From Bugula neritina (Eukaryota > Bryozoa > Gymnolaemata > Cheilostomatida > Bugulidae): a DNA stretch of 64,000 nt. The position numbers and the translations under genes are program-made. The notes under the pieces were generated by a model, which was not told where the DNA came from, made no database searches, and worked only from the letters and a program-made list of their open reading frames with translations. Every line of letters begins with the position of its first letter. Position 1 is the stretch's first letter. Below are positions 4,788 to 48,406 of the stretch, piece by piece. The stretch spans positions 1,081,001 to 1,145,000 of the forward strand of contig OZ037772.1 of NCBI GenBank assembly GCA_964035545.1. The letters are read 5' to 3'.

Positions 4788-5063
4788 GGGGGGGGGGGGG
4801 GGGGGGGGTACAATGGTCATAGGGGTACAAAAAGCCGGCCAAATTGTCAGAGAACTAAATGACTTAGAGTTGTGATTTTTTTTCATAAAAAGATATTGAC
4901 ATAATTATTCAGCCATTGTAGTTTCAACACTTGCGGAAGATACGTGTTGAAAAGGCAAGAAAAAAACTGTTTTTACCTACTTTTTGTAAATTCTTCAAGT
5001 CAATAAGTTCTCTCACAATTTGGCCGGCTTTTTGTACCCCTATGACCGTTGTACCCCCCCCCC
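4788..5063. mobile_element. Foldback/MITE element with 47-bp inverted repeats capped by G21 and C10
   Basis: Left arm 4809-4855 (starts TACAATGGTCATAGGGGTAC) and right arm 5007-5053 (ends GACCGTTGTAC) are near-perfect inverted repeats around about 150 bp of AT-rich core. The left arm is preceded by 21 G and the right arm followed by 10 C, so the homopolymers are themselves inverted-repeat tips of unequal length. No ORF inside. The superfamily is not assignable from the termini. Confidence 0.75.

Positions 5064-9705: not shown

Positions 9706-9795
<90 letters not shown>
9706..9795. repeat. (TA)n microsatellite, about 90 bp
   Basis: Uninterrupted TA dinucleotide run. Together with the second (TA)n at about 9888-9908 it brackets the hammerhead ribozyme at 9827-9889. 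Confidence 0.97.
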
Positions 9796-9798
<3 letters not shown>

Positions 9799-9826
9799 TC
9801 TACTATCGCCAAGGTGTGGGCCATGG

Positions 9827-9889
9827 TACTCTGTTGTGTGCTGATGAGGGGACAAACCCCGAAACAGCTGCTGTCCACAGATTGAGGTA
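9827..9889 (+). ncRNA. Type I hammerhead self-cleaving ribozyme
   Basis: All parts of the hammerhead core are in place. Box 1 CTGATGA lies at 9841-9847. Stem II is GGGG (9848-9851) paired to CCCC (9857-9860) with loop ACAAA. Box 2 GAAA is at 9861-9864. Stem III ACAG (9864-9867) pairs with CTGT (9871-9874) across a CTG loop. The cleavage triplet GTC ends at C9875. Stem I is TGTG (9837-9840) paired with CACA (9876-9879), then an internal loop, then an outer helix TACTC (9827-9831) with GAGGTA (9884-9889, one bulge). Very short stem III and an open stem I match the hammerheads reported in Penelope-like retroelements. Flanking (TA)n on both sides fits such an element's short repeat end; no reverse transcriptase is present nearby. 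Activity is inferred, not shown. Confidence 0.85.
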
Positions 9890-11282
9890 TATATATATAT
9901 ATATATATTTAATAATGCATTAAACAATTTCTATGCAAGACCGAAATATTTAACTTACTCAAAACTTGTACATTTGAACTTTCAACTTCACTCAATTATT
10001 GGGCCTCATGCATCATAAAACTTTTGAACTTGTTTTATATTCTTTCTTGGATGTTGTAGATAAACTGTAGTCTACATACCGTGGTGGAGCAGATATAAGA
10101 ATTTATAATTGCATCAACCCGTTGCAGCAGCCATCTTACTGGAAATCTCAAACAAACCTCAGCATCGCCAAAGCCATATTTTAGCGAGCTGACAGAATAT
10201 CTCAGAGACATAACTTGTAAAGTACAGAAGTAAGAATTGAACACAAAGGACAGTATATGTATAATCCTGCCTTCCATCAAGGATATAGCTTTCTTAAAGG
10301 ATTTTCTGAGAATAATGATACAAATATTACCACTTCAGCTTAACAACTTATGACATAACGGTTACATTGGATATCATTTTCTAGATTTCATATTTGTCTG
10401 TGTTTTAGTACTGCCAAGGATATCACTCAGCACTAAATGGACAAAATTGCTTCTTTTAATTTGGACACTATGCTGGAGAAAGGCCAATATATATGAATTG
10501 GATAAAGAAACTAGTAAATTATTCAGTGTTATAACTTATAATTAAACTTTGAACGAGCTTTGCTCTGATTGGTTTTTTCTGACTTATCGTAATATATATC
10601 TATATCTAGCCAGGGTTTTGTGCCTACATAGTAATGTACACGTTCTATGATAAGAGTAATTGAATGCAAATATAAATGAACATAATTTTTCTGATTTTAG
10701 TCTAGTTATGTTATAAGCATTAGATAACTTGTTTTTGAGACAGCGGGGTGAGAGCTTTGTAAAAAATTTAGCCTAATTAGAATTTCTGTAATAGATAAAC
10801 TTTACTAGCTCCTTAACAATTCAATTGAAGTTGAGTAAAAATATACATCAGATTACCAGTTCAAAGTAAAAGACTTTGAAGGCTAATAACTTACTACGAG
10901 CATTTTAAACAAATAACAAGAGACTAAATTCAAAACCAATTTATAATTATTCTTAGCATATGACAAGTATGAATGTTACAGCTGCTCTTATACAATGTAC
11001 TTGTACAGCTCTTACTCATCCTAGTATGTTTAACTGACATAGAATCCTTGTCTTTCTAGGGACTCCGCACATCGTTGGAGTGCAGAGGTCATCTCCAACA
11101 AAAGACTTTGAATTAAAGTGGATAAATAAAAGTAAGCGCTTGTAATGTTTTTCAGCTCTAATTAAAGTTCCCAAAATGTTATTGTTGGTAAGTTTCAGGC
11201 TCAAGAATAATCTTGTATTTTCTTATTAAAAAACAAAAAGAGAAAAAAAAAGAAAATAAGGGTCCTCAGTCGCAAAAACCAA
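9890..11282. other. Intergenic; no gene supported
   Basis: Begins with the second (TA)n tract. Minus-strand ORFs at 10035-10280 and 11016-11204 have no recognised motif. AT-rich throughout. Confidence 0.45.
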
Positions 11283-21381: not shown

Positions 21382-24196
21382 ATACGATGTAATGGGAACA
21401 TAGGCTTTACATTACTACATTACAATACATACACATGTATAACAGAAGTTGATTAAAATATTTGTATATTCCTATCCTAAAGATTTAAATATTTTTCAAG
21501 TCAGTTGGGTTTTACCTTTTATATGTACACTGTTCAGTGGAATGCTTCTTTTAAACAAAGAAAGTGTTATTTAAACTCATTAATTTTAGTTGCCAAGGGA
21601 GATAAAGTTGCAGATAGTTTCTTTTCCTTTCAGATAAAACGTGTTACATATGCACATGAATATGTTCAACTGATGATAGCAATCAAAATACAAATACCTT
21701 GCAACATAAAATAACACAACACCTGCAAAATACTGCTTACAATAGAATTTGCAGCTCTAACTGTAATATTGAGTCTACCCTGTGGAGTAATGGTAGCAAG
21801 CCAGCGGGTGAAAAGTTTTTAATTGAGTTTTGGGTTTGAAAAGAAATTAGGACTCACCTGCTGACGCTGCCTTGTAGCTCTCCAGAATGCTGCCAGCAGA
21901 GATTCTACACAACTCACACTGCCACAGTATGCAGTCAAATACCTTCCTGCTCCCTACATTGGTTGCTATAAACAGTACAGAGCTACACGTATGAGATAAG
22001 AGTGGACTAACAGAGAGAGAGGGAGAGGGAGGGGGAGAGAGGGGGAGAGAGAGAGAGAGAGAGGGAGAGAGAGAGGACGGATCAACAGTTACTAGCATCT
22101 CAATTTCCCCACACTTCTCACCTGTTCTGTGATTTTCACCTTGACCTCTTCAAACTTGTCATGACTTGGTAACCTGCTGTCTCCACTGTTGGAATCTGGT
22201 CTTATACCCTCACTTTCATTGGACAAGTTGCTAGCTAGTAACGTGCCAGCAGATGGTGTGTTGGTGTTTAATGCTGAGTTATTACTGGTGTTTACTGCTG
22301 ACTAAGAGAGATTCGGCCTCAACTACAAAACATAACAGGATAATCTACAGTACAAGGAGAAGATCTACAGTACAAGGAGAGGTTCTACAGTACAAGGAGA
22401 AGATCTACAGTACAAGGAGAGAATCTACAGTACAGTGAGAGAATCTACAGTACAAGGAGAAGATCTACAGTACAAGGAGAGGATCTACAGTACAAGGAGA
22501 GAATCTACAGTACAAGGAGAGGATCTACAGTACAAGGAGAGGATCTACAGTACAAGGAGAAGATCTACAGTACAAGGAGAGGATCTACAGTACAAGGAGA
22601 GGATCTACAGTACAAGGAGAGGATCTACAGTACAAGGAGAGGATCTACAGTACAAGGAGAGAATCTACAGTACAGGGAGAGAATCTACAGTACAAGGAGA
22701 AGATCTACAGTACAAGGAGATGATCTACAGTACAAGGAGAAGATCTACAGTACAAGGAGAAGATCTACAGTACAAGGAGAGGATCTACAGTACAAGGAGA
22801 GGATCTACAGTACAAGGAGAAGATCTACAGTACAAGGAGAGGATCTACAGTACAAGGAGAGAATCTACAGTACAAGGAGAGGATCTACAGTACGAGGAGA
22901 GGATCTACAGTACAAGGAGGGGATCTACAGTACAAGGAGATGATCTACAGTACAAGGAGAGGATCTACAGTACAAGGAGAGAATCTACAGTACAAGGAGA
23001 AGATCTACAGTACAAGGAGAGAATCTACAGTACAAGGAGAGGATCTACAGTACAAGGAGAGGATCTACAGTACAAGGAGAGGATCTACAGTACAAGGAGA
23101 AGATCTACAGTACAAGGAGGGGATCTACAGTACAAAGAGAGGATCTACAGTACAAGGAGAGGATCTACAGTACAAGGAGAGGATCTACAGTACAAGGAGA
23201 GGATCTACAGTACAAAGAGAAGATCTACAGTACAAGGAGGGGATCTACAGTACAAGGAGAAGATCTACAGTACAAGGAGAGGATCTACAGTACAAGGAGA
23301 GAATCTACAGTATAAGGAGAAGATCTACAGTACAAGGAGAAGATCTACAGTACAAGGAGAGAATCTACAGTACAAGGAGAGGATCTACAGTACAAAGAGA
23401 AGATCTACAGTACAAGGAGAGGATCTACAGTACAAAGAGAAGATCTACAGTACAAGGAGAGGATCTACAGTACAAGGAGAAGATCTACAGTACAAGGAGA
23501 AGATCTACAGTACAAGGAGAAGATCTACAGTACAAGGAAAGAATCTACAGTACAAAGAGAGGATCTACAGTACAAAGAGAAGATCTACAGTACAAGGAGA
23601 AGATCTACAGTACAAGGAGAGGATCTACAGTACAAGGAGGGGATCTAATGTATCTCTTAGCTACAGTCTCACAAGAGAATGGATACTCTACCAGATGTGT
23701 GTATGATATGTGAGTGGTAGATGAACTCACCTGGTCAGTCATTGAAAGTCGAATGAGTTCACTGGATATCACTCCGTCTGTGTCACATAGGAAGTGCTTC
23801 CTCTGAGAGTTCTGGACCTTTGTCTTCGCTCCTATAGCAACAGCAGGGAGACTATTAGTTACTATAGCAACAGCAGGGAGACTATTAGTTACTATAGCAA
23901 CAGCAGTGTAACTAGTAGCTTAACTAACAAATATAAATATACACAGTTATACACAGAGTAGATATAAATATACACAGCTATACACAGAGTATATATAAAT
24001 ATACACAGCAACAGTAAGGGTTGACACCATAATTTAGAATGAAGGAAGATTCTGTTTTCACCTGAAGAAGGTAGAAGCTGTTGGGTGGTCCTGTGTTCAA
24101 TAGATGAAAGATTATCTCGGTATATGGTGTACGCATCATCAGATATGGGAGTGAGTCCTTGGTGGTCACATTTGAAGAGAGAAAGGTTCTGATACT
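19440..24196 (-). CDS. Multi-exon helix-rich protein, unidentified (partial)
   Basis: Read 5' to 3' on the minus strand, exons are 24062-24196, 23731-23831, 22122-22301, 21858-21965, 21253-21288, 21107-21171, 20718-20829, 20248-20363, 19806-19932 and 19440-19622. Each has AG/GT borders, and phases agree at every junction except 22122 to 21965, where an exon is missing or a boundary is misjudged. Sample sequence: ISDDAYTIYRDNLSSIEHRT; HFLCDTDGVISSELIRLS; VGSRKVFDCILWQCELCRIS; TVQRMSQLSNKISRLIIKFM; AFAQCIHTSTEKLTATLSFI; EDIYGAVNRVLNQVQSFLTS; MCSQAIASLNSIGDNLSALF; DRAIFLKAANTMRSCRNLAS. The second half is a run of amphipathic helices with scattered cysteines; exon 22122-22301 is Ser/Asn-rich and probably unstructured. 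I do not recognise the family. Both ends are missing: the first exon has no start, and the last ends at a GTAACA donor in phase 1 with no partner found. Introns carry a (TA)n, a (GA)n and the 20-bp minisatellite. Confidence 0.65.
21320..21379. repeat. (TA)n microsatellite in intron
   Basis: TA dinucleotide run in the intron between the exons at 21858-21965 and 21253-21288 of the minus-strand gene. Confidence 0.95.
22012..22076. repeat. (GA)n purine tract in intron
   Basis: GA/GGGA-rich run on the plus strand, hence a CT-rich tract on the sense strand just before possible acceptors of the exon at 21858-21965. It may act as an over-long polypyrimidine tract, and may explain why the acceptor phase there is hard to fix. 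Confidence 0.9.
22342..23646. repeat. 20-bp minisatellite, about 65 copies
   Basis: Unit ATCTACAGTACAAGGAGAGG. The array keeps a strict 20-bp register for about 1.3 kb with no indel visible; variation is almost only A/G at the three bases before ATCT and at AAGG/AAAG. Twenty is not divisible by three, so it yields long open frames with a 20-residue period (423 and 257 codons) that are artefacts. It lies in the intron between exons 23731-23831 and 22122-22301 of the minus-strand gene. Confidence 0.98.
23832..24006. repeat. Two short tandem repeats in intron
   Basis: A 30-bp unit (CTATAGCAACAGCAGGGAGA...) is present about 2.5 times from 23832, starting at the acceptor of exon 23731-23831. A 29-bp unit (ATAAATATACACAGTTATAC...) follows about three times at 23930-24006. 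Confidence 0.85.
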
Positions 24197-28370: not shown

Positions 28371-31300
28371 TATGACGATACCTAAAAGGTCGGACTCAAC
28401 CTCAAGGACTAACTCATCAACAGCTAAATGCACCCAGAGGCAGTGCTATACTTAATTCTACCCCAGGACTTACCGTGCCTCAGGCAGTGTGTGAAAAATG
28501 TACTAAAATAATAGATAATGAAGATGAAGGTACCCTGTCAATTGAGCGTGAAACTTGTCTCACTTGGTTTCATTTAGACTGTACTGATCTTATAAAGCAT
28601 GACCTAAACACCATTACGAAGAAGAGTATTCATTGGTTTTGTGACCAATATGAAGCTGTGGCATCCCCAAATTTCATAACCAGACTTCAAGCTGTTGAAT
28701 CCTACATTGAAAAAAGTTATGTTCAAGTAATGGATTCATTTAATAATCGCATGACTGCTGTGGAATCTCAACTAACTAGCTTATTTGAGAATCATGTTTC
28801 CAGAAGTGAGAAAACATTTGCTTCGGTAGTTGCAAGACTGGAAGACTCCACTACAACAATAAATAGGCAACTAAAAAACCAAGAAGTTTAAATTAAATCT
28901 ACCAAAACAAAGACTTCTAGTGAAAGCAGAGCTAAAAATATCATAGTTTTTAGAATTTCCGAGGAACACGACTATAGTGAACTAGGCTTTGAGTTGAGCA
29001 TTAACTCTTCACGGATGTTCTTTATTATGTTTTATTATACTTCTATTGACATCCTATTGACATCGTCAAGACTACCATTATTGCAATTCAAACTTACATG
29101 ATCAGGATAAACATAAATAAACAATAAACAAAAAAGGAAACAATATAATTAATGTAAATAACTTACTTATTTTGCTCTCTTAAAATTACACCAGTTCACT
29201 AGCACCAACTATTGCCAAGTGCCAGAGTTAGCACTGGCTGTGCTGTAGAAAGCTTTTCTTAGCGTAGCTAAAATAGCTTAGCAAACTAGCGCTAATTTCA
29301 CTACAACGACACTACTTTAGATGAATCCATAGGTAAACTCTCAGAAGTTTTAGATTCATGTAGTCTCAGATTTCACACATCAAGAGACAATGCCGCAAGA
29401 TTAGGACAAGAAAAGTTGACAAGATTAGACCCACGAGACTAACATTAGCTTCAGAAGTTCAAAAATGGGAATTTCTAAAACGAATCAACGATCAGAAAAT
29501 AGAAGGAGTCTTTGCGCGTCTTGACTGGAATGAAAAGGAACAAGAAAAATATTTTCAACTGAGAAGCGAGCTTAGGGAATTGAGGCAGAAAAATCCAGAA
29601 AACAAGTATAAGATAACAAACGGGAAGATAATAATCGAAGAATATTATCTGTAAATGCAAGATCAGTAAGGGGGAAAATATCGGAGACTCAAACCCTATC
29701 CGTTGAATACAATATCATTTGTATTACTGAAACACACCTAGATAATGCATTTTTGAATTCTCAACTGTTTTCTCCCAAGGATAAAGTAGTATATAGAAAA
29801 AACCGTGACTCACACGGAGGTGGTGTATTGATTGCCATAAATGTAGGAATTCCCCATAAGCTAATCAGGTGTGAAACAGAAGCAGAAGTAATCACAGTAT
29901 GTTTTAGATGGGATAGCAAGGAATATTGCAATCTTACTTGCTATTATAGACCCCCTTCTTCACGTGTTATGAACTTATTCTTTGAGTACATGGAAAATAT
30001 TCACACTAAATACTCATAACTGGTGAATTTAACCTTCCAGGAATCAATTAAGGAAAATACTGGTCTTTCAACTTGTTGGAGGATATACTATACTGACTTT
30101 TGTGATTTTCTAACTGATAATCATTTTGAACAACTTGTTCATAAATATACGCACGTAGCAGGCAATATATTAGATCTCATCTGTACTGACTTGTCATATA
30201 AAGTTTAAAGCACAAATATAATAACACCGGGTATTAGCGACCATTCCATGATAGAAACGGTCTTGACTGGTAAAGTTGAACAGAAGAAGAAACCACCTAT
30301 CCCCCCCCCCCCCCCCCCATCAAGCTATTTCACAAAATCGAGTTTCGAACTCGGCGGGTTTACAGCTGGTCTAGACGAGTTGCTTTATACTATTAAAAAC
30401 AAAGTGATGCTGAAATATGATATTAATGTTATATGGAATACATTTCAGACTGAATTACATATACTTGTTGATTCATATGTCCCAATTAAACAACGTAAGC
30501 CTATAAATCTGCATGAGCCTTTCTGGTTTAATGATGAAGCCAGACGGGCATGTTAGAAACAGCGAAAGTTCTACAACCGCTTTCACAAGTCTGGTGATAC
30601 TGATCACTTGGCTAAATATAAAGAGTTACGTCGCCATAATGAAAAATTATTTAGGAAGCTAAAAGCATCTTTTCTGGTGAATCGTCTATACCAACCTCTT
30701 TCCAGTGGCTACACAAAACTGTTTTACAAATATGTTAAAGACCTAAAAGGGAATGATAATGAGATTACTTCCATAGAAAATAACGATGCTATTTTGATGC
30801 ACAATAAAACTAAGATATCTAACACTCTGAATGGGTTTTTCTACAGTGTGATTACCACCTTTACCAGAATTACCATCAGTCACTGAGAAAGATAATATAG
30901 TGGTAACTAAAGAAGGAGCTTTAAACCTGCTGAGACAACTTGTGCAAGGTAAAGCTCCTGGAGTAGATGAATTCACAAAGAACTATCTCACAGTAGACTT
31001 GGATCGAACAGCAGAAATACTGGTGTGTATTTTCAATCATTCACTCAGTACAGGAATAGTGCCGGATGACTGGAAGACTGCAAATGTAACACCTGTGTTT
31101 AAACAGGGTAACCGCACTCTAGCTTCCAACTATTGACCAGTATCACTAACGTGCATTTGTTGTAAAATTCTTGAACATGTGGTTCTGCATCATTTAAACA
31201 TACAATTGGAAAATTTCATACATGAAAGCCAACATGGTTTTCGCCGCAACTTTTTATGTGTAACTCAGCTTGCTACTGTCAACCATGATATATTAAGGCA

Positions 31301-32480
31301 TATAGATAAAGGACATTTTGTAGATGCAGTTGTGCTGGATTTTTCTAAAGCCTTTGATGTAATTGACCATCATATTCTTGTAAGCAAAATGATATTGTTA
31401 AAAAAATAAACCCCTGTATTATCTGATAAGTTTCATCATTTTTAACTGGACGCTCACAATGAGTGGTCATTGATGGGGTATCTTCGGATTTAACACCAGT
31501 GACTTCCGGGGTTCCACAAGGAAGTGTGCTGGGTCCAACATTATTCGTTTTGTTTATTAATGACATTGTAAACTGCGTTACACACAGTACAATCAGACTT
31601 TTTGCTCATGACACTTTTGTCTATCTGCCCATTACTGATGCAAATGACCATCATAAACTACAGGGAGATCTCTAGACTTTATAGGTGGGCAAAAGAAAAC
31701 AATATGAAGTTTAACTCAAAGAAAAGTAATGTCATCACCTTTGGTAAGAAAACAGAAAATATGGAAAATGTCTTCACTTATAAATTAGGAAAAGATCCCC
31801 TGAATAGAGTTGGAGTTGTAAAATACCGTGGGATATTGCTATCAGCAGACTTGAAATGGAATAAGCATGTCGAAAACGCCATATCAAAGGCATACAGAGT
31901 ATTAGGATTAATCAAACTCACACTAGGAAATGCCCTAGAAAATGTAATAAGTCTTGCATAAAATTTATAAGTCTTGCATAAAAAAACTTTTGGTAGACCT
32001 CTCCTGGAATATGCTGCGGAAGTATAGGACCCGACCAATTAACATCTAATAACAAAATTAGAAGTTACTCAAAATAGGGCTATACGGTTAATTAAAAATT
32101 TAAAGGGTAGAAAAGTATTGATAACAGCTGCCAAATTTGACCAAGGCCTGGAAACATTAAGAAATCGCAGACAATCACAAAGAATTTCTTTGTTTTGTCG
32201 CATTACTGCTAATGATGATTTATTTCCAACCTTAAATAACACACTTAAATCAATGAAATCCTCAACCCATGACATGAATACCCGTATTAAGACTTTCAAT
32301 GCTATAGCCTGCGATTGGAGCCTGTACCTGCAGGGTTTCCTGGTGCGCACTGTCCGGGAGCTCCATACGGGGGAGATAGTAGCGGATTTCTGAGCCTGGA
32401 TAGATCCGAGAATCCCACAATTACTTTCTCCGAGAGGTCTTGGGACTTAACCCAATCAAGATCAAGATAACATTAACTAA
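28371..32480 (+). mobile_element. CR1/jockey-type LINE, decayed full-length-like copy
   Basis: A non-LTR retrotransposon read from three regions. ORF1: an ATG at 28371, then after a frame change a PHD-like Cys/His segment (AVCEKCTKIIDNEDEG; CLTWFHLDCTDLIKHDL; HWFCDQYEA), a coiled coil (ESYIEKSYVQVMDSFNNRMT) and, beyond an apparent insertion, DWNEKEQEKYFQLRSELREL ending at about 29654. Endonuclease (APE type): NIICITETHLDNAFL at about 29705-29755 (starting in another frame from the rest), DSHGGGVLIAINVGIPHKLI and CYYRPPSS. Reverse transcriptase: GKAPGVDEFTKNY, ILEHVVLHHLNIQLENFIHE, SQHGFRRNFLC, AVVLDFSKAFDVIDHHIL, SGVPQGSVLGPTLFVLFIND and LFAHDTFVYLP, where the catalytic FADD box reads FAHD. 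Thumb: WAKENNMKFNSKKSNV. The 3' end carries an ATCAAGATCAAGATAAC-like tail. Many stops and frame shifts plus the damaged catalytic box show it is dead. Confidence 0.88.
28990..29320. mobile_element. Probable nested insertion inside LINE ORF1
   Basis: ORF1 reads NIIVFRISEEHDYSE up to about 28985 and resumes as NDTTLDESIGKLSEVLDSCS from about 29310. The roughly 325 bp between have stops in every frame and no LINE-like translation. Exact ends and target duplication are not resolved. Confidence 0.45.
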
Positions 32481-35151: not shown

Positions 35152-38100
35152 GGTCCTCGGGTCTGTGTCTGTACGGGAAGTGCCTGGTGATCTACGATAA
35201 TAATGGTGATCTCAAGGTCATGCCCAAACCACACAGGTGTTCTGTGTCAAATGGGGCGTCGGACTGCGCCGGCAACTCCGGCATACCAGGTTCCCAGTGT
35301 GTTACCATCAGTGGTGGAGAGGAAGGAGGTTGTTGGTGTACAGGGGGTACTCACTACTACAACCGAGCTTGTGTACCTGACATGACTAGTAAGTGTGTAT
35401 CTACAGTGTGTATCTGCAGTGTGTATCTACAGTGTATATCTACAGTGTGTATCTAGTGTGTGTCTACAGTGTATGTCTACAGTGTATATCTACAGTATAT
35501 ATCTACACTGTATATCTACAATGTGTATCTGCAGTGTATATCTACAGTGTATATCTACAGTGTATATCTACAGTGTGTATCTACAGTGTATATCCATAGT
35601 GTGTATCTACAGTGTATATCTACAGTGTGTATATACAGTATATATCTACAGTGTATATCTACAGTGTGTATCTACAGTGCATATCTACAGGGTATATCTA
35701 CAGTGTATATCTATAGTATATATCTACAGTGTGTATCTACAGTGTATATCTACAGTGTGTATCTACAGTGTGTATCTACAGTGTGTATCTACAGTGTGTA
35801 TCTACAGTGTATATCTACAGTGTGTATCTATAGTGTGTATCTACAGTGTGTATCTACAGTGTATATCAGTGTGTCTCCTCTGAAATATTTGGAAGTATCG
35901 CTTGAGTTTCACGTTTTCTTGTATTACCGGGTAACTACTTGTATTATCGGTTGGCAATGCCTACTTGTATTATACTTTAATCTTGTTTTGCAGAGGACAG
36001 AAAGGGAGACTCGGTCCCAAAGGACATCCAGGATCTTACCGAACTTATGGAGAGGAAGGGTTCACCCGGTGTTGATGGCCTGCCTGGTATATCCGGCAAT
36101 CCCGGAGGTGCAGGAGAAAGGAGACCACCTGGTTTCCCAGGAGATACCGGACTTTTTGGACAACCAGGTAATGTTTATGCTCAATTGAGTTTAATCTGTC
36201 AAGTTATGTTTGGATATTTTTCATTTTCGTTATTTTCTATTTCATGTTTGTTACGTGGAAAGGGAGAAAACTCTGTCTCGGAGCATTTTTGTTTCTTCAG
36301 AAAACTTTGGATTATTTTATTCTGGTCTACACAGGGGTGTAGACAGAATAAAAACACAGGGGTGTAGACAGAACAAACTACACAGGGGTGTAGACAGACT
36401 AAACTACACAGGGCTGTAGACAGACTAGACTAACCAGTAGTGTAGATAAACTAAACCTACTACGAACGTATAACTACCCTGCGTCATGCTGACATGACAT
36501 CTCTATTCTCTCCTATAATTTGACTTTTATTTAGCGAGCAGATTTCAAGTGGGCTTTTCTATAGTGGCCAGCCACACTGTTTATTGTAGCAACATAGAAA
36601 TCAAGTTAAAAACTAGTTGCACGTGTTGTGATGCTATCAATGGGTGCTTACAGGTAGAGACGGAGCACTTGGACCACAGGGTTCATGAGGTGTTGAAGGA
36701 CAAGATGGCTCTGACGTTGCGCCTGGTGCCCTTGGAACTCAAGGAGAACCCGGGCCTGTTGGTAAATACTAAATGCTACTCTTTGTATAACACAGGCTGT
36801 ATTTGACATGAGTTTCCCATCTTAGCAACTCATCACTTCGCGTTTAACATTTCTACTCTCAGATACAATCTTGTTGTACAGGTAAACCTGGCGAAGATGG
36901 ATTCGACGGAGAACCCTGACCTAAAGGCGCTGCTGGAGCTGCTGGTGAACCTGGTCCAGCTGGACCTCCAGGTCCTACTGGATTCCCTGGTCCACGAGGA
37001 AACACTGGCCCAGTTGGTCAACCAGGAGATGTTGGCCCTGTCAGCTTGAAGGGTGCTCGTGGAGAGGCTGGACCTAAAGGCCCAAGAGGTCCGTTCAGCT
37101 TATGTATACAAAGTTCATATACATGACTCTTCTATTAACTGCTATTAACTCAGTAGGTTTTCATTCCAAACATTATAAACTGAGAATGTGACAAAAAGTG
37201 ACCAACTATTACAGGACCAGCTGGTACTGACGGCTTTAGCGGAGAACGTGGACCTAAAGGAGAACCGGTGCAACTGGAGTTACTGGACCACCTGGTCTGC
37301 CCGGACCTGCTGTCTTGATGGAAAGCCTGGTTCACCAATTGTTGATGGAAAACCAGGACCAATGGGTATTCTAATCATTTGTTGTTATTGATCTGTATAT
37401 TGCTGAATTACCTTACCTACTGCTACCACCTTACCTTCTGCTACCATCTTATCTTCTGCTACCATCTTATCTTCTGCTACCATCTTATCTTCTGCTACCA
37501 TCTTATCCTCTGCTACCATCTTATCTTCTGCTACCATCTCATCTTCTGCTACCATCTTACCTTCTGCTACCATCTTACCTTCTGCTACCACCTTATTTTC
37601 TGCTACCATCTTATCTTCTGCTACCATCTTATCTTCTGCTACCACCTTACCTTCTGCTACCATCTTATCTTCTGCTACCATCTTATCTTCTGCTACCATC
37701 TTATCTTCTGCTACCATCTTACCTTCTGCTACCATCTTATCTTCTGCTACCATCTTATCTTCTGCTACCATCTTATCCTCTGCTACCACCTTATCTTCTG
37801 CTACCACCTTGCCTTCTGCTACCATCTTATCTTCTGCTACCACCTTACCTTCTGCTACCATCTTATCTTCTGCTACCATCTTTTCTTCTTCTACCACCTT
37901 ATCTTCTGCTACCATCTTATCTTCTGCTACCATCTTATCTTCTGCTACCATCTTACCTTCTGCTACCATCTTATCTTCTGCTACCATCTTATCTTCTGCT
38001 ACCATCTTATCCTCTGCTACCACCTTATCTTCTGCTACCACCTTACCTTCTGCTACCATCTTATCTTCTGCTACCATCTTATCTTCTGCTACCATCTTAT

Positions 38101-43495: not shown

Positions 43496-43563
43496 CAGAC
43501 GCTAGTTAAGACATTCCAGCGTAGCAATACACAAATAATGTAAATTTCCAAACAAAATCACTT

Positions 43564-43644
43564 AACTATATACACAACGACCTGATGAGCGTAGCTTGCA
43601 CTACGTGAAACATTATTGTTGTCGATAAAATGAATATATAAGTT
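43564..43644 (+). ncRNA. Hammerhead-like motif, weaker candidate
   Basis: CTGATGA at 43582-43588; stem II GCGTAG/CTACGT (43589-43594 with 43601-43606) and a CTTGCA loop; GAAA at 43607-43610; a 3-bp stem III (ACA with TGT 43620-43622); cleavage triplet GTC ending at 43623. The outer helix AACTATATA (43564-43572) can pair with TATATAAGTT (43635-43644). Only one pair forms in inner stem I, so the motif is probably degenerate. It lies about 70 bp past the collagen stop codon. Confidence 0.4.
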
Positions 43645-43899
43645 TATTATATCCGAAGTTGTATCAGTACCAAATATATATACTCTATTTTTCAAAATAT
43701 TGAGTCCTTTTGATTCATTTTTTAATCATAGAAACTCAGTCATCATGAACTTCAATGTAAATAATTTAAATATAAAACAATACATTTTATGATATAATAT
43801 AATATTATATTTTTCTTTCGGGATAATTATTCTATTTATATTAAAACTTATTTATTTGAAGTAATTTAATTATAAAACATATCATGTTGGTGAAACACT
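43645..43899. other. 3' flank of collagen gene, no gene
   Basis: Very AT-rich; no clear AATAAA signal in a good position was identified. It leads into the 17-bp satellite. Confidence 0.4.
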
Positions 43900-46800
43900 A
43901 TACAGTATAATATGTTATACAGTATATTATGTTATACAGTATATTATGTTATACAGTATACTATGTTATACAGTATACTATGGTATATTATGTCATACAG
44001 TAAATTATGTTATACAGTATACTATGTTATACAGTATATTATGTTATACAGTATATTATGTTATACAGTATACTATGGTATATTATGTCATACAGTATAT
44101 TATGTTATACAGTATACTATGTTATACAGTATATTATGTTATACAGTATACTATGTTATACAGTATACTATGTTATACAGTATACTATGTTATACAGTAT
44201 ATTATGTTATACAGTATATTATGTTATACAGTATACTATGGTATATTATGTCATACAGTATATTATGTTATACAGTATACTATGTTATACAGTATACTAG
44301 GTTATACAGTATATTATGTTATACAGTATATTATGTTATACAGTATACTATGTTATACAGTATACTAGGTTATACAGTATATTATGTTATACAGTATATT
44401 ATGTTATACAGTATACTATGTTATACAGTATATTATGTTATACAGTATATTATGTTATACAGTATACTATGTTATACAGTATATTATGTTATACAGTATA
44501 TTATGTTATACAGTATGTTATGTTATACAGTATATTATGTTATACAGTATACTATGTTATACAGTATACTATGTTATACAGTATATTATGTTATACAGTA
44601 TACTATGTTATACAGTATACTATGTTATACAGTATATTATGTTATACAGTATATTATGTTATACAGTATGTTATGTTATACAGTATATTATGTTATACAG
44701 TATACTATGTTATACAGTATACTATGTTATACAGTATATTATGTTATACAGTATACTATGTTATACAGTATATTATGTTATACAGTATATTATGTTATAC
44801 AGTATATACTAAGTTATACAGTATACTATGTTATACAGTATATTATGTTATACAGTATACTATGTTATACAGTATTCTATGTTATACAGTATACTATGGT
44901 ATATTATGTCATACAGTATATTATGTTATACAGTATACTATGTTATACAGTATATTATGTTATACAGTATATTATGTTATACAGTATACTATGTTATACA
45001 TTATACTATGTTATACAGTATACTATGCTATACAGTATACTATGTTATACAATATATTATGTGATACAGTATATTATGTCATACAGTATATTATGTTATA
45101 CAGTATATTATGTTATACAGTATACTATGTTATACAGTATACTATGGTATATTATGCCATACAGTATATTATGGTATACAGTATATTATGTTATACAGTA
45201 TATTATGTTACACAGTATACTATGCTATACAGTATATTATGTTATACAGTATACTATGTTATACAGTATATTATGTTATACAGTATACTATGTTATACAG
45301 TATATTATGTTATACAGTATACTATGGTATACAATATATTATGTTATACAGTATATTATGTTATACAGTATATTATGTGATACAGTATATTATGTTATAC
45401 AGTATACTATGTCATACAGTATACTATGTTATACAGTATATTATGTCATACAGTATATTATGTTATACGGTATATTATGTTATACAGTATACTATGTTAT
45501 ACAGTATACTATGTTATACAGTATATTATGTCATACAGTATATTATGTTATACAGTATACTATGTTATACAGTATACTATGTTATACAGTACACTATGTT
45601 ATACAGTATACTATGTTATACAGTATATTATGTTCTACAGTATATTATGTTATACAGTATACTATGTTATACAGTATACTATGTTATACAGTATATTATG
45701 TTATACAGTATATTATGTTATACAGTATACTATGCTATACAGTATACTATGTTATACAGTATACTATGTTATACAGTATATTATGTTATACAGTATATTA
45801 TGTTATACAGTATACTATGTTATACAGTATATTATGTTGTACAGTATATTATGTTATACAGTATATACTAAGTTATACAGTATACTATGTTATACAGTAT
45901 ATTATGTTATACAGTATACTATGTTATACAGTATACTATGTTATACAGTATACTATGGTATATTATGTCATACAGTATATTGTGTTATACAGTATACTAT
46001 GTTATACAGTATATTATGTTATACAGTATATTATGTTATACAGTATACTATGTTATACATTATACTATGTTATACAGTATACTATGCTATACAGTATACT
46101 ATGTTATACAATATATTATGTGATACAGTATATTATGTCATACAGTATACTATGTTATACAGTATACTATGTTATACAGTATACTATGTTATACAGTATA
46201 CTATGGTATATTATGCCATACAGTATATTATGTTATACAGTATATTATGTTATACAGTATATTATGTTATACAGTATACTATGCTATACAGTATATTATG
46301 TTATACAGTATACTATGTTATACAGTATACTATGTTATACAGTATATTATGTTATACAGTATACTATGTTATACAGTATATTATGTTATACAGTATACTA
46401 TGGTATATTATGTCATACAGTATATTATGTTATACAGTATACTATGTTATACAATATATTATGTTATACAGTATATTATGTTATACAGTATATTATGTGA
46501 TACAGTATATTATGTTATACAGTATACTATGTCACACAGTATACTATGTTATACAGTATATTATGTCATACAGTATATTATGTTATACAGTATACTATGT
46601 TATACAATATATTATGTTATACAGTATATTATGTTATACAGTATACTATGTTATACAGTATACTATGTTATACAGTATATTATGTTATACAGTATATTAT
46701 GTTATACAGTATACTATGCTATACAGTATATTATGTTATACAGTATGCTATGTTATACAATATATTATGTCATACAGTATATTATGTTATACAGTATATT

Positions 46801-48290
46801 ATGTTATACAGTATACTATGTTATACAGTATACTATGTTATACAGTATACTATGTTATACAGTATACTATGTTATACAGTATATTATGCTATACAGTATA
46901 TTATGCTATACAGTATATTATGTTATACAGTATATTATGTTATACAGTATACTATGTTATACAGTATATTATGTTATACAGTATATTATGCTATACAGTA
47001 TACTATGTTATACAGTATATTATGTTATACAGTATACTATGTTATACAGTATACTATGTTATACAGTATACTATGTTATACAGTATATTATGTTATACAG
47101 TATACTATGTTATACAGTATACTATGTTATACAGTATACTATGTTATACAGTATATTATGTTATACAGTATATTATGTTATACAGTATACTATGCTATAC
47201 AGTATATTATGTTATACAGTATGCTATGTTATACAATATATTATGTCATACAGTATATTATGTTATACAGTATATTATGTTATACAGTATACTATGTTAT
47301 ACAGTATATTATGTTATACAGTATACTATGGTATATTATGTCATACAGTATATTATGTTATACAGTATACTATGTTATACAATATATTATGTTATACAGT
47401 ATATTATGTTATACAGTATACTATGCTATACAGTATATTATGTTATACAGTATGCTATGTTATACAATATATTATGTCATACAGTATATTATGTTATACA
47501 GTATATTATGTTATACAGTATACTATGTTATACAGTATATTATGTTATACAGTATACTATGGTATTATATGTCGTACAGTATATTATGTTATACAGTATA
47601 CTATGTTATACAATATATTATGTTATACAGTATATTATGTTATACAGTATACTATGCTATACAGTATATTATGCTATACAGTATATTATGTTATACAGTA
47701 TATTATGTTATACAGTATACTATGTTATACAGTATATTATGTTATACAGTATACTATGGTATATTATGTTATACAGTATACTATGGTATATTATGTCATA
47801 CAGTATATTATGTTATACAGTATACTATGTTATACAATATATTATGTTATACAGTATATTATGTTATACAGTATACTATGCTATACAGTATATTATGTTA
47901 TACAGTATGCTATGTTATACAATTTATTATGTCATACAGTATATTATGTTATACAGTATACTATGTTATACAGTATATTATGTTATACAGTATATTATGT
48001 TATACAGAATACTATGTTATACAGTATATTATGTTATACAGTATATTATGTTATACAGTATACTATGTTATACAGTATACTATGGTATATTATGCCATAC
48101 AGTATATTATGTTATATGGTATATTATGTTATACAGTATACTATGCTATACAGTATATTATGTTATACAGTATACTATGTTATACAGTATACTATGTTAT
48201 ACAGTATATTATGTTATACAGTATACTATGTTATACAGTATACTATGTTAAACAGTATACTATGTTATACAGTGTATAATGCTATACATA
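43900..48290. repeat. 17-bp satellite array, about 4.4 kb, with higher-order structure
   Basis: Unit TATACAGTATACTATGT (T/C at TAYTA), about 255 copies. The core TATACAGTATA is near-palindromic. Most variants are single substitutions; a shortened variant (CTATGGTATATTATGTCATA) recurs. Rare markers recur about 1.06 kb apart: the TATACTAAGTTATACAG variant at about 44806 and 45865, and a whole stretch at 44828-45064 repeated at 45887-46123. Seventeen is not divisible by three, so all three plus frames are open for up to 941 codons with a 17-residue period; these are not genes. Confidence 0.97.
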
Positions 48291-48406
48291 GACTGGAGTA
48301 TGATTTAATAGTCCAATTAGATACAAGTGTCAACTGCGTGTTCGTGTAAAGTACAGCCAATCATAATCCTGTGCCAACTTCAGTGTTTCACAGTTAGCCT
48401 AGGGCC

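Follow-up and report, generated by a model that had tools for sequence, protein, structure and literature searches.

What kind of element carries a hammerhead ribozyme that sits between two TA microsatellite tracts of the Bugula neritina genome, and which machinery placed it there? The locus lies in a stretch of 64,000 nt (C8:1081001-1145000, hereafter the window) of an assembly of 215.8 Mb in 295 contigs. The best explanation, to which we assign a probability of roughly 0.7, is that the window copy is a partial-lap fragment of a non-LTR retrozyme that was copied into (TA)n by a Penelope-like element (PLE).

The hammerhead at 9829-9886 is real. All of the components named in the original prediction (the CTGATGA core, GAAA, GTC, stems II and III, and a two-part stem I) can be read in the sequence (Table 1). 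Stem III comprises 4 bp, with A9864-G9867 pairing with C9871-T9874 around a triloop. The window copy has a G at position 9836 where the other copies displayed have a C, which creates a G.G mismatch and leaves an inner stem I of 4 bp, against 5 bp in copies that lack the mismatch. A type I hammerhead descriptor of our own making matches the window twice, here and at 43578-43624, against a single match in 200 dinucleotide-shuffled versions of the complete window.

Table 1. Features of the two hammerhead-bearing insertions in the window (L, locus; positions are those of the window).
Feature	Position	Strand	Basis
(TA)44 microsatellite, 5' side, belonging to the insertion target	9708..9795	.	
Retrozyme fragment, unit positions 180-272 (93 bp), 5'-truncated	9795..9887	+	97% to L004 unit
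Hammerhead ribozyme of type I, bounded by the two strands of outer stem I	9829..9886	+	direct reading, descriptor match
Stem I, outer part, 3 bp	C9829-C9831/G9884-G9886	+	sequence reading
Stem I, inner part, 4 bp	T9837-G9840/C9876-A9879	+	sequence reading
Conserved core CTGATGA	9841..9847	+	sequence reading
Stem II GGGG/CCCC (G9848-9851/C9857-9860), loop ACAAA	9848..9860	+	sequence and 18-unit alignment
GAAA (9861-9864), stem III ACAG/CTGT, loop CTG, GTC, predicted cut after C9875	9861..9875	+	
CACAGATTGAGG, the 12 nt from cleavage site to 3' junction	9876..9887	+	
(TA)10 abutting the 3' junction	9888..9907	.	
Hammerhead-bearing repeat, separate insertion, probably the 3' remnant of a second PLE family (PLE-2)	43543..43736	+	
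Second hammerhead, CGAC-CTGATGA-6-bp stem II-GAA-ACATTATTGT-T-GTCG	43578..43624	+	descriptor match

The stems are intact in 98.6% of pair cells across 18 retrozyme units hand-chosen from full laps. This conservation and the shuffle background both stand against a chance or degenerate look-alike with no catalytic history, a reading that we consider very improbable. Such a reading could draw on the stem I mismatch of the window copy, on the absence of any compensatory pair change among the 18 units, and on the silence of Rfam. The original prediction held that a covariance-model score below threshold would speak against a hammerhead, and this is formally what was found. The Rfam hammerhead models give no match at the gathering threshold, none in the window at E ≤ 1, none in 501 bases at E ≤ 10, and none across the whole genome, and control genomes gave none either, in a comparison that had no positive control known to be detected. 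Rfam also misses a five-lap retrozyme array (L004) and a PLE hammerhead (L085), and its silence is therefore read as model insensitivity and counts as weak evidence.

The ribozyme belongs to a large family. A genome search for the motif, as the original prediction had proposed, finds the hammerhead core 373 times (191 and 182 matches on the two strands; reversed control, 0), and a 105-bp query has at least 41 genome matches (best 40 of 766 candidates scored). The copies derive from a non-coding unit of 271/272 bp and occur as partial, single or tandem units; the tandem spacing is 271/272 bp with one hammerhead per unit, and L004 holds five laps. What had been proposed to be an orphan ribozyme is thus one 5'-truncated copy in a family of hundreds. 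Two subfamilies differ at about 14 positions (counted by eye) and by 1 bp in length. No sense ATG frame of the L004 circle exceeds 20 aa, and the GC content of one unit is 45.2%. Several units are identical between separate insertions, which makes this a young family. A pattern for other large type I families, CTGATGAGH..CGAAAC, has 7 genome matches against 1 for its reversed control; it does not catch the hammerhead of PLE-2.

The window copy is near certain to be a 5'-truncated fragment of a metazoan non-LTR retrozyme. It amounts to about a third of one lap, sits in a long TA tract, and has boundary bases that are both ambiguous against TA. The ribozyme is where the original prediction placed it, and the element is larger than the 9827..9889 given there, the retrozyme piece being 9795-9887. 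The further suggestion of a solo element end or a small non-autonomous retroelement is borne out, the copy being the end of such a retroelement. No RT/GIY-YIG ORF is present in the 93-bp insertion, and the unit is unrelated to the PLE loci. Known metazoan non-LTR retrozymes share with this family a unit of 150-450 bp, a type I hammerhead, the lack of a long ORF, tandem copies, a GC content below 50%, a strongly self-paired circle (predicted here) and coexisting hammerhead PLEs, as far as the available text of PMC7229834 describes them. Copy number differs, with hundreds here versus the thousands given for coral, mussel and axolotl in the same partial text (Cervera and de la Pena 2020, PMC7229834).

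The near-identity of laps within tandem units would also fit an ordinary tandem satellite that spreads by unequal exchange and without retrotransposition. We regard this reading as the least credible of all: the copies are spread over at least eight large contigs and both strands, most are single or partial (the first 100 of the 373 core places form 85 clusters, 73 of them with one core), and their 3' ends are nearly fixed while their 5' ends vary.

These junctions were read in 47 insertions, which are all the BLAST finds in the retrozyme loci examined. Roughly half of them stem from the 30 top matches to the 105-bp query, and the first 20 clusters of contig C1 supplied the rest; the sample is not random, and likely local duplicates (two insertions each in L005 and L017) are kept in it. 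Every one of the 47 matches stops at unit position 264-272 or runs at most 7 nt into the next lap, over bases at which unit and TA coincide. Five insertions stop at 270 and one at 264, making the junction nearly, not perfectly, fixed. It lies about 12 nt past the predicted ribozyme cut. In subfamily 2 the 3' junction varies, with either GATTGA or GATTGAGA ahead of TA. The 5' ends are scattered over the unit, and insertion lengths range from 56 to 1375 bp (53-1360 bp before shared junction bases are added). There are 24 insertions below 260 bp, 9 of 260-290 bp, 15 above 284 bp and 6 of at least 540 bp, classes that overlap such that one 290-bp insertion is counted twice.

The target is mostly (TA)n, in which target-site duplications (more than 4 bp, if present, by the retrozyme criterion) are invisible. 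A tract of (TA)≥5 lies within 15 nt of the 3' end in 43 of the 47 insertions, is absent there in the other 4, and is found no more than 10 nt from the 5' end in 33; for background, 0.23% of window positions have (TA)≥5 within 4 nt downstream. Copies were located via the ribozyme, so copies ending elsewhere could escape, and a check with a mid-unit word was made. This word, which excludes the ribozyme, occurs 215 times in the genome, and 187 of these places also carry CTGATGAG at the expected spacing. For contig C1 the lists are complete: CTGATGAG is found in 26 of 29 mid-unit copies and the unit end in two of the remaining three. As 28 of 29 copies thus reach either the ribozyme or the end of the unit, few 3' ends, if any, can lie between mid-unit and ribozyme. 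The final word of the unit has 475 genome occurrences (reversed control, 1), and its TA-terminated form has 319 rows in which some places are doubled. Among 65 unit ends on C1, 43 lead into TA, 11 mark lap boundaries inside arrays, and 11 fall in neither class. Two loci show possible double-ended insertions around TA tracts: a divergent retrozyme pair with a long TA tract between its members (L106) and a convergent pair (L107).

PLEs are present in the same genome. A PLE protein query returns 85 genome matches with a best E of 8e-29, the weakest of which may be other RTs. A provisional view that the genome has no endonuclease PLE, taken from a single genome GIY-YIG Pfam match (L041), was overturned by these matches. 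The family termed PLE-1 has an ORF of 775 aa in L085 that starts 37 nt past the hammerhead cut and contains RVT_1 by Pfam. Of 7995 candidates scored against this ORF, 363 are homologues at E ≤ 0.001, and the best 120 of them show 36-97% identity over 54-100% of its length. Pfam detects no GIY-YIG domain in PLE-1, even with the C-terminal piece at E ≤ 1, and annotates one in 2 of 34 aligned PLE members, one of which (P0053) was picked for that annotation. The Y, Y-G, R, H, E and N expected of GIY-YIG are nearly invariant in the 34-member alignment. A sequence search of solved structures gave no match.

PLE-1 is organised as a partial tandem in L085 and has a pLTR ahead of the ORF in L067. Its hammerhead, identified by eye, reads GCUACU-CUGAAGA-GGGUAC/GUACCC-GAAAUAUC or U-AGU..., and with its GAAAUAUC or GAAAUAUU it nearly lacks stem III. 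Dimeric minimal hammerheads were reportedly described in PLEs by Lunse in 2017. The PLE-1 ribozyme resembles these in its nearly absent stem III, whereas the window ribozyme differs in having a 4-bp stem III and a triloop. The original prediction had pointed to Penelope-like elements on the strength of a short stem III and TA-rich borders; the genome does hold PLEs with hammerheads and TA junctions, and the 4-bp stem III of the window copy is unlike the nearly absent stem III of their ribozyme.

The 3' ends of PLE-1 were read in six loci and fifteen small regions, with L075 and L082, which have no 3' marker, left out. A script finds 23 occurrences of the marker in all loci examined. Of these, 21 run into (TA)≥5, and the other two (L067 upstream and L085) continue into the ORF of the next copy. 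The TA tract begins 18-65 nt from the start of the marker, a few tracts being imperfect (L079, L080), and it starts mostly at two places, either after CTCGTATACCTATT or about 37 nt further. Measured from the cut of the PLE hammerhead, these usual ends come 57 and about 94 nt later, within the first part of the ORF of the following lap. This arrangement matches the PLE 'tail' as described in the available parts of the Anolis and Adineta papers (PMC11167929, PMC3846280). One locus, L064, has two PLE-1 3' ends in opposite orientation, each with its own TA tract.

The second hammerhead of the window lies in a repeat with 48 genome rows, 38 of which end at the same query base. Five of eight loci read run into (TA)n (L112, L055, L079, L110 and L111), which begins a few bases later in L110 and L111; the other three (the window copy, L109 and L030) do not. 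Copies of this repeat on C8 are mutual segmental duplicates, and a stretch of about 41.4-43.9 kb around the second hammerhead is repeated elsewhere on this contig. The repeat probably belongs to a second PLE family, a label given by eye: in L112, about 75 nt separate a hammerhead of this type from a preceding open frame whose appearance resembles a PLE endonuclease. Pfam identifies no PLE domain in the L112 frames. In tblastn searches with 34 PLE proteins, the frame upstream in L112 is matched at E 0.008, the frame beside the hammerhead is unmatched, and the window gives no match.

The original prediction stated that no reverse transcriptase lies within reach of the ribozyme, which does not hold for this window: a LINE copy is found at about 28.4-32.47 kb and the probable PLE remnant at about 43.5-43.74 kb. 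Neither is physically part of the window retrozyme. The LINE copy (28376-32470, + strand, 3' end at about 32465-32470, 47 genome rows) shows a weak PHD match that stays under the curated cut-off, together with one frame that looks endonuclease-like by eye. We take it to be CR1-like. None of 20 LINE 3' ends read, from the 47 rows, lies at (TA)n, and the ends fall around AAGATC repeats; as one family, this is a thin control.

The retrozyme and PLE-1 share both the (TA)n target and an internal 3' junction past the ribozyme. A different account of the microsatellite holds that (TA)n is an inherited 3' tail, that a LINE or another RT copies the tailed linear RNA, and that the coincidence with PLEs reflects AT preference. 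The greater frequency of (TA)n at the 3' end than at the 5' side agrees with this account, which we nonetheless judge improbable: the ribozyme would remove such a tail by cutting about 12 nt upstream, the 3' junctions of subfamily 2 vary, the LINE family tested is not found at (TA)n, and the 3' junctions of PLE-1 are of like kind.

Mobilisation of the retrozyme by a PLE is a likely event in our assessment, supported by these junctions and short of proof. The retrozyme unit and PLE sequence share nothing beyond chance words, which counts against PLE mobilisation and leaves recognition in trans without explanation. One strong similarity match between the two was rejected, being a separate retrozyme copy in L064. 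The retrozyme faces a PLE-1 end across one TA tract in L064 and L081 (among 21 PLE-1 places), lies just downstream of a PLE-1 end in L011, and sits in a PLE-2-type TA tract in L055. The occurrence of retrozyme and PLE-1 in one TA tract is rejected as proof because a shared target alone suffices. Either PLE-1 or PLE-2 may be the one that serves the retrozyme.

The position of the 3' junction also bears on the template. As the junction lies beyond the cut, the self-cleaved linear monomer cannot be the template; the RNA copied must have been either ligated into a circle or left uncut. One of the 47 5' ends falls within 2 nt of the cleavage site (unit position 261), against 0.9 expected; the lack of an excess there argues against run-off on cleaved linear RNA. 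The predicted circle folds have 71-72% of bases paired, with z scores of -6.9 and -8.9 for the two subfamilies (200 shuffles each). Past the junction, the next six bases (UAUUAU or UAUUAC, depending on the subfamily) form a predicted unpaired loop that adjoins a paired GAGG/GAGA in both subfamilies, and a TA primer could pair with UAU at this loop. Covariation in the rod amounts to 2 compensatory pairs, no more than in shuffles (357 of 500), although the cell count and the covariation score of the rod are above those of every shuffle.

Eleven of the 47 5' ends lie near a complete lap, against 3.6 expected (p = 7e-4, for an interval picked post hoc). This excess may reflect a polymerase that stops at its own primer on a circle, or TA microhomology at the start of the unit. 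Multi-lap insertions give mixed evidence for an origin from a single circle. Laps within an array are 0-4 bases apart in L004, L010 and L020, and all three laps of L010 carry a variant that is absent from the other aligned units. Within a subfamily, separate insertions often resemble each other as closely as the laps of one array do, L057 joins the two subfamilies, with 17 differences, in one insertion, and L055 has an 8-bp duplication in one lap only.

The main competitor for the template keeps both the retrozyme and its PLE helper, and replaces the circle by an uncut linear multimeric transcript, which would make the hammerhead incidental to insertion. The mixed laps of L057 and the single-lap duplication of L055 would arise more easily from linear or recombined templates. 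An Anolis PLE inserts hammerhead-dead RNA in vitro with internal initiation of reverse transcription, and its authors describe unprocessed RNA as the dominant substrate in the accessible portion of their paper (PMC11167929); this independence of ribozyme cutting in vitro speaks for uncut RNA rather than circles. Against this template, animal retrozyme RNA accumulates, where examined, as circles and linear monomers according to the available text of PMC7229834, the laps of L010 share a private variant, and the hammerhead, given its 4-bp stem III, should cleave in monomeric form. On balance, an uncut template is a serious possibility that we consider unlikely, and we lean towards a circular template for retrozyme insertion.

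Under PLE-mediated copying of a retrozyme circle, retrozyme transcripts are expected to be cut by their type I hammerheads and ligated into circles of 271/272 nt. A PLE protein would cut (TA)n DNA, and the freed TA 3' end would anneal to the UAUUAU segment that is predicted to be unpaired in the folded circle. Reverse transcription would then begin inside the RNA, pass the ribozyme in the upstream direction and cover anything from part of a lap to several laps, after which the cDNA end would be joined to the opposite side of the TA tract, in many cases via TA microhomology. For the window copy, reverse transcription would have halted after about one third of a lap. The full proposal, in which PLEs capture hammerhead-made circles in trans and, at TA microsatellites, copy them by rolling-circle target-primed reverse transcription from a start that is set by pairing between the TA primer and a UA loop exposed next to the cut, is tentative and somewhat less probable than its negation. 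If it is true, the retrozyme is tied to its helper class by junction anatomy.

Several known systems resemble parts of this arrangement, as far as their partial texts allow comparison. The Poseidon element PAc of Anolis (PMC11167929) shares an internal RT start and short and long forms of the 3' end, or 'tail'. PAc and the Penelopes of Adineta vaga (PMC11167929, PMC3846280) share the tail, AT-rich targets and tandem laps, and Adineta Pen2 has a 5' junction formed through microhomology (PMC3846280); unlike these PLEs, the window element has no ORF. The available text on the Adineta Penelopes (PMC3846280) does not mention a hammerhead. The RT start of PAc is not homologous to the cut DNA in the portion of PMC11167929 available, whereas the start sites of the retrozyme and PLE-1 are UA-rich and could pair with (TA)n. 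Chaetognath PLE transcripts joined to (CAA)n (PMC2678813) likewise place PLE sequence beside a microsatellite; they differ in the repeat, in that the accessible text mentions no hammerhead, and in being ESTs rather than genomic junctions. Plant LTR retrozymes (cf. PMC4918200), as described in the literature on the animal elements, also form non-coding circles cut by hammerheads, and differ in their type III hammerheads, LTRs, proposed Gypsy helpers and size of about 700 bp.

Mobilisation of animal retrozymes by PLEs has already been proposed on the basis of co-occurrence, shared hammerheads and tandem copies, according to the papers available; in the accessible text of PMC7229834, no mention was found of a fixed 3' junction past the cut or of a (TA)n target shared with PLEs. 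The kind of element described here is thus known; the junction evidence that ties the retrozyme to PLEs is new, none such having been seen in the literature searched (titles, abstracts and partial texts). A shared rare target and an internal 3' junction make the PLE proposal for the mover of animal retrozymes concretely testable in vitro, and the junctions raise the question of whether RNA circles are real templates for retrotransposition.

The window holds several further features. MIR533 scores 56 and 47 bits on the two strands at 4816-5046, below its gathering score of 80, perhaps reflecting an inverted-repeat element. A weak collagen-repeat match at 35981-36367 (+ strand) falls below the curated cut-off. 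The repeat array at 22336-23713 has a strong base skew and is open in two overlapping frames (STVQGEDLQYKE...), and a long array of 17-bp TATACAGTATATTATGT-like repeats at 43899-48349 contains open frames of up to 956 aa.
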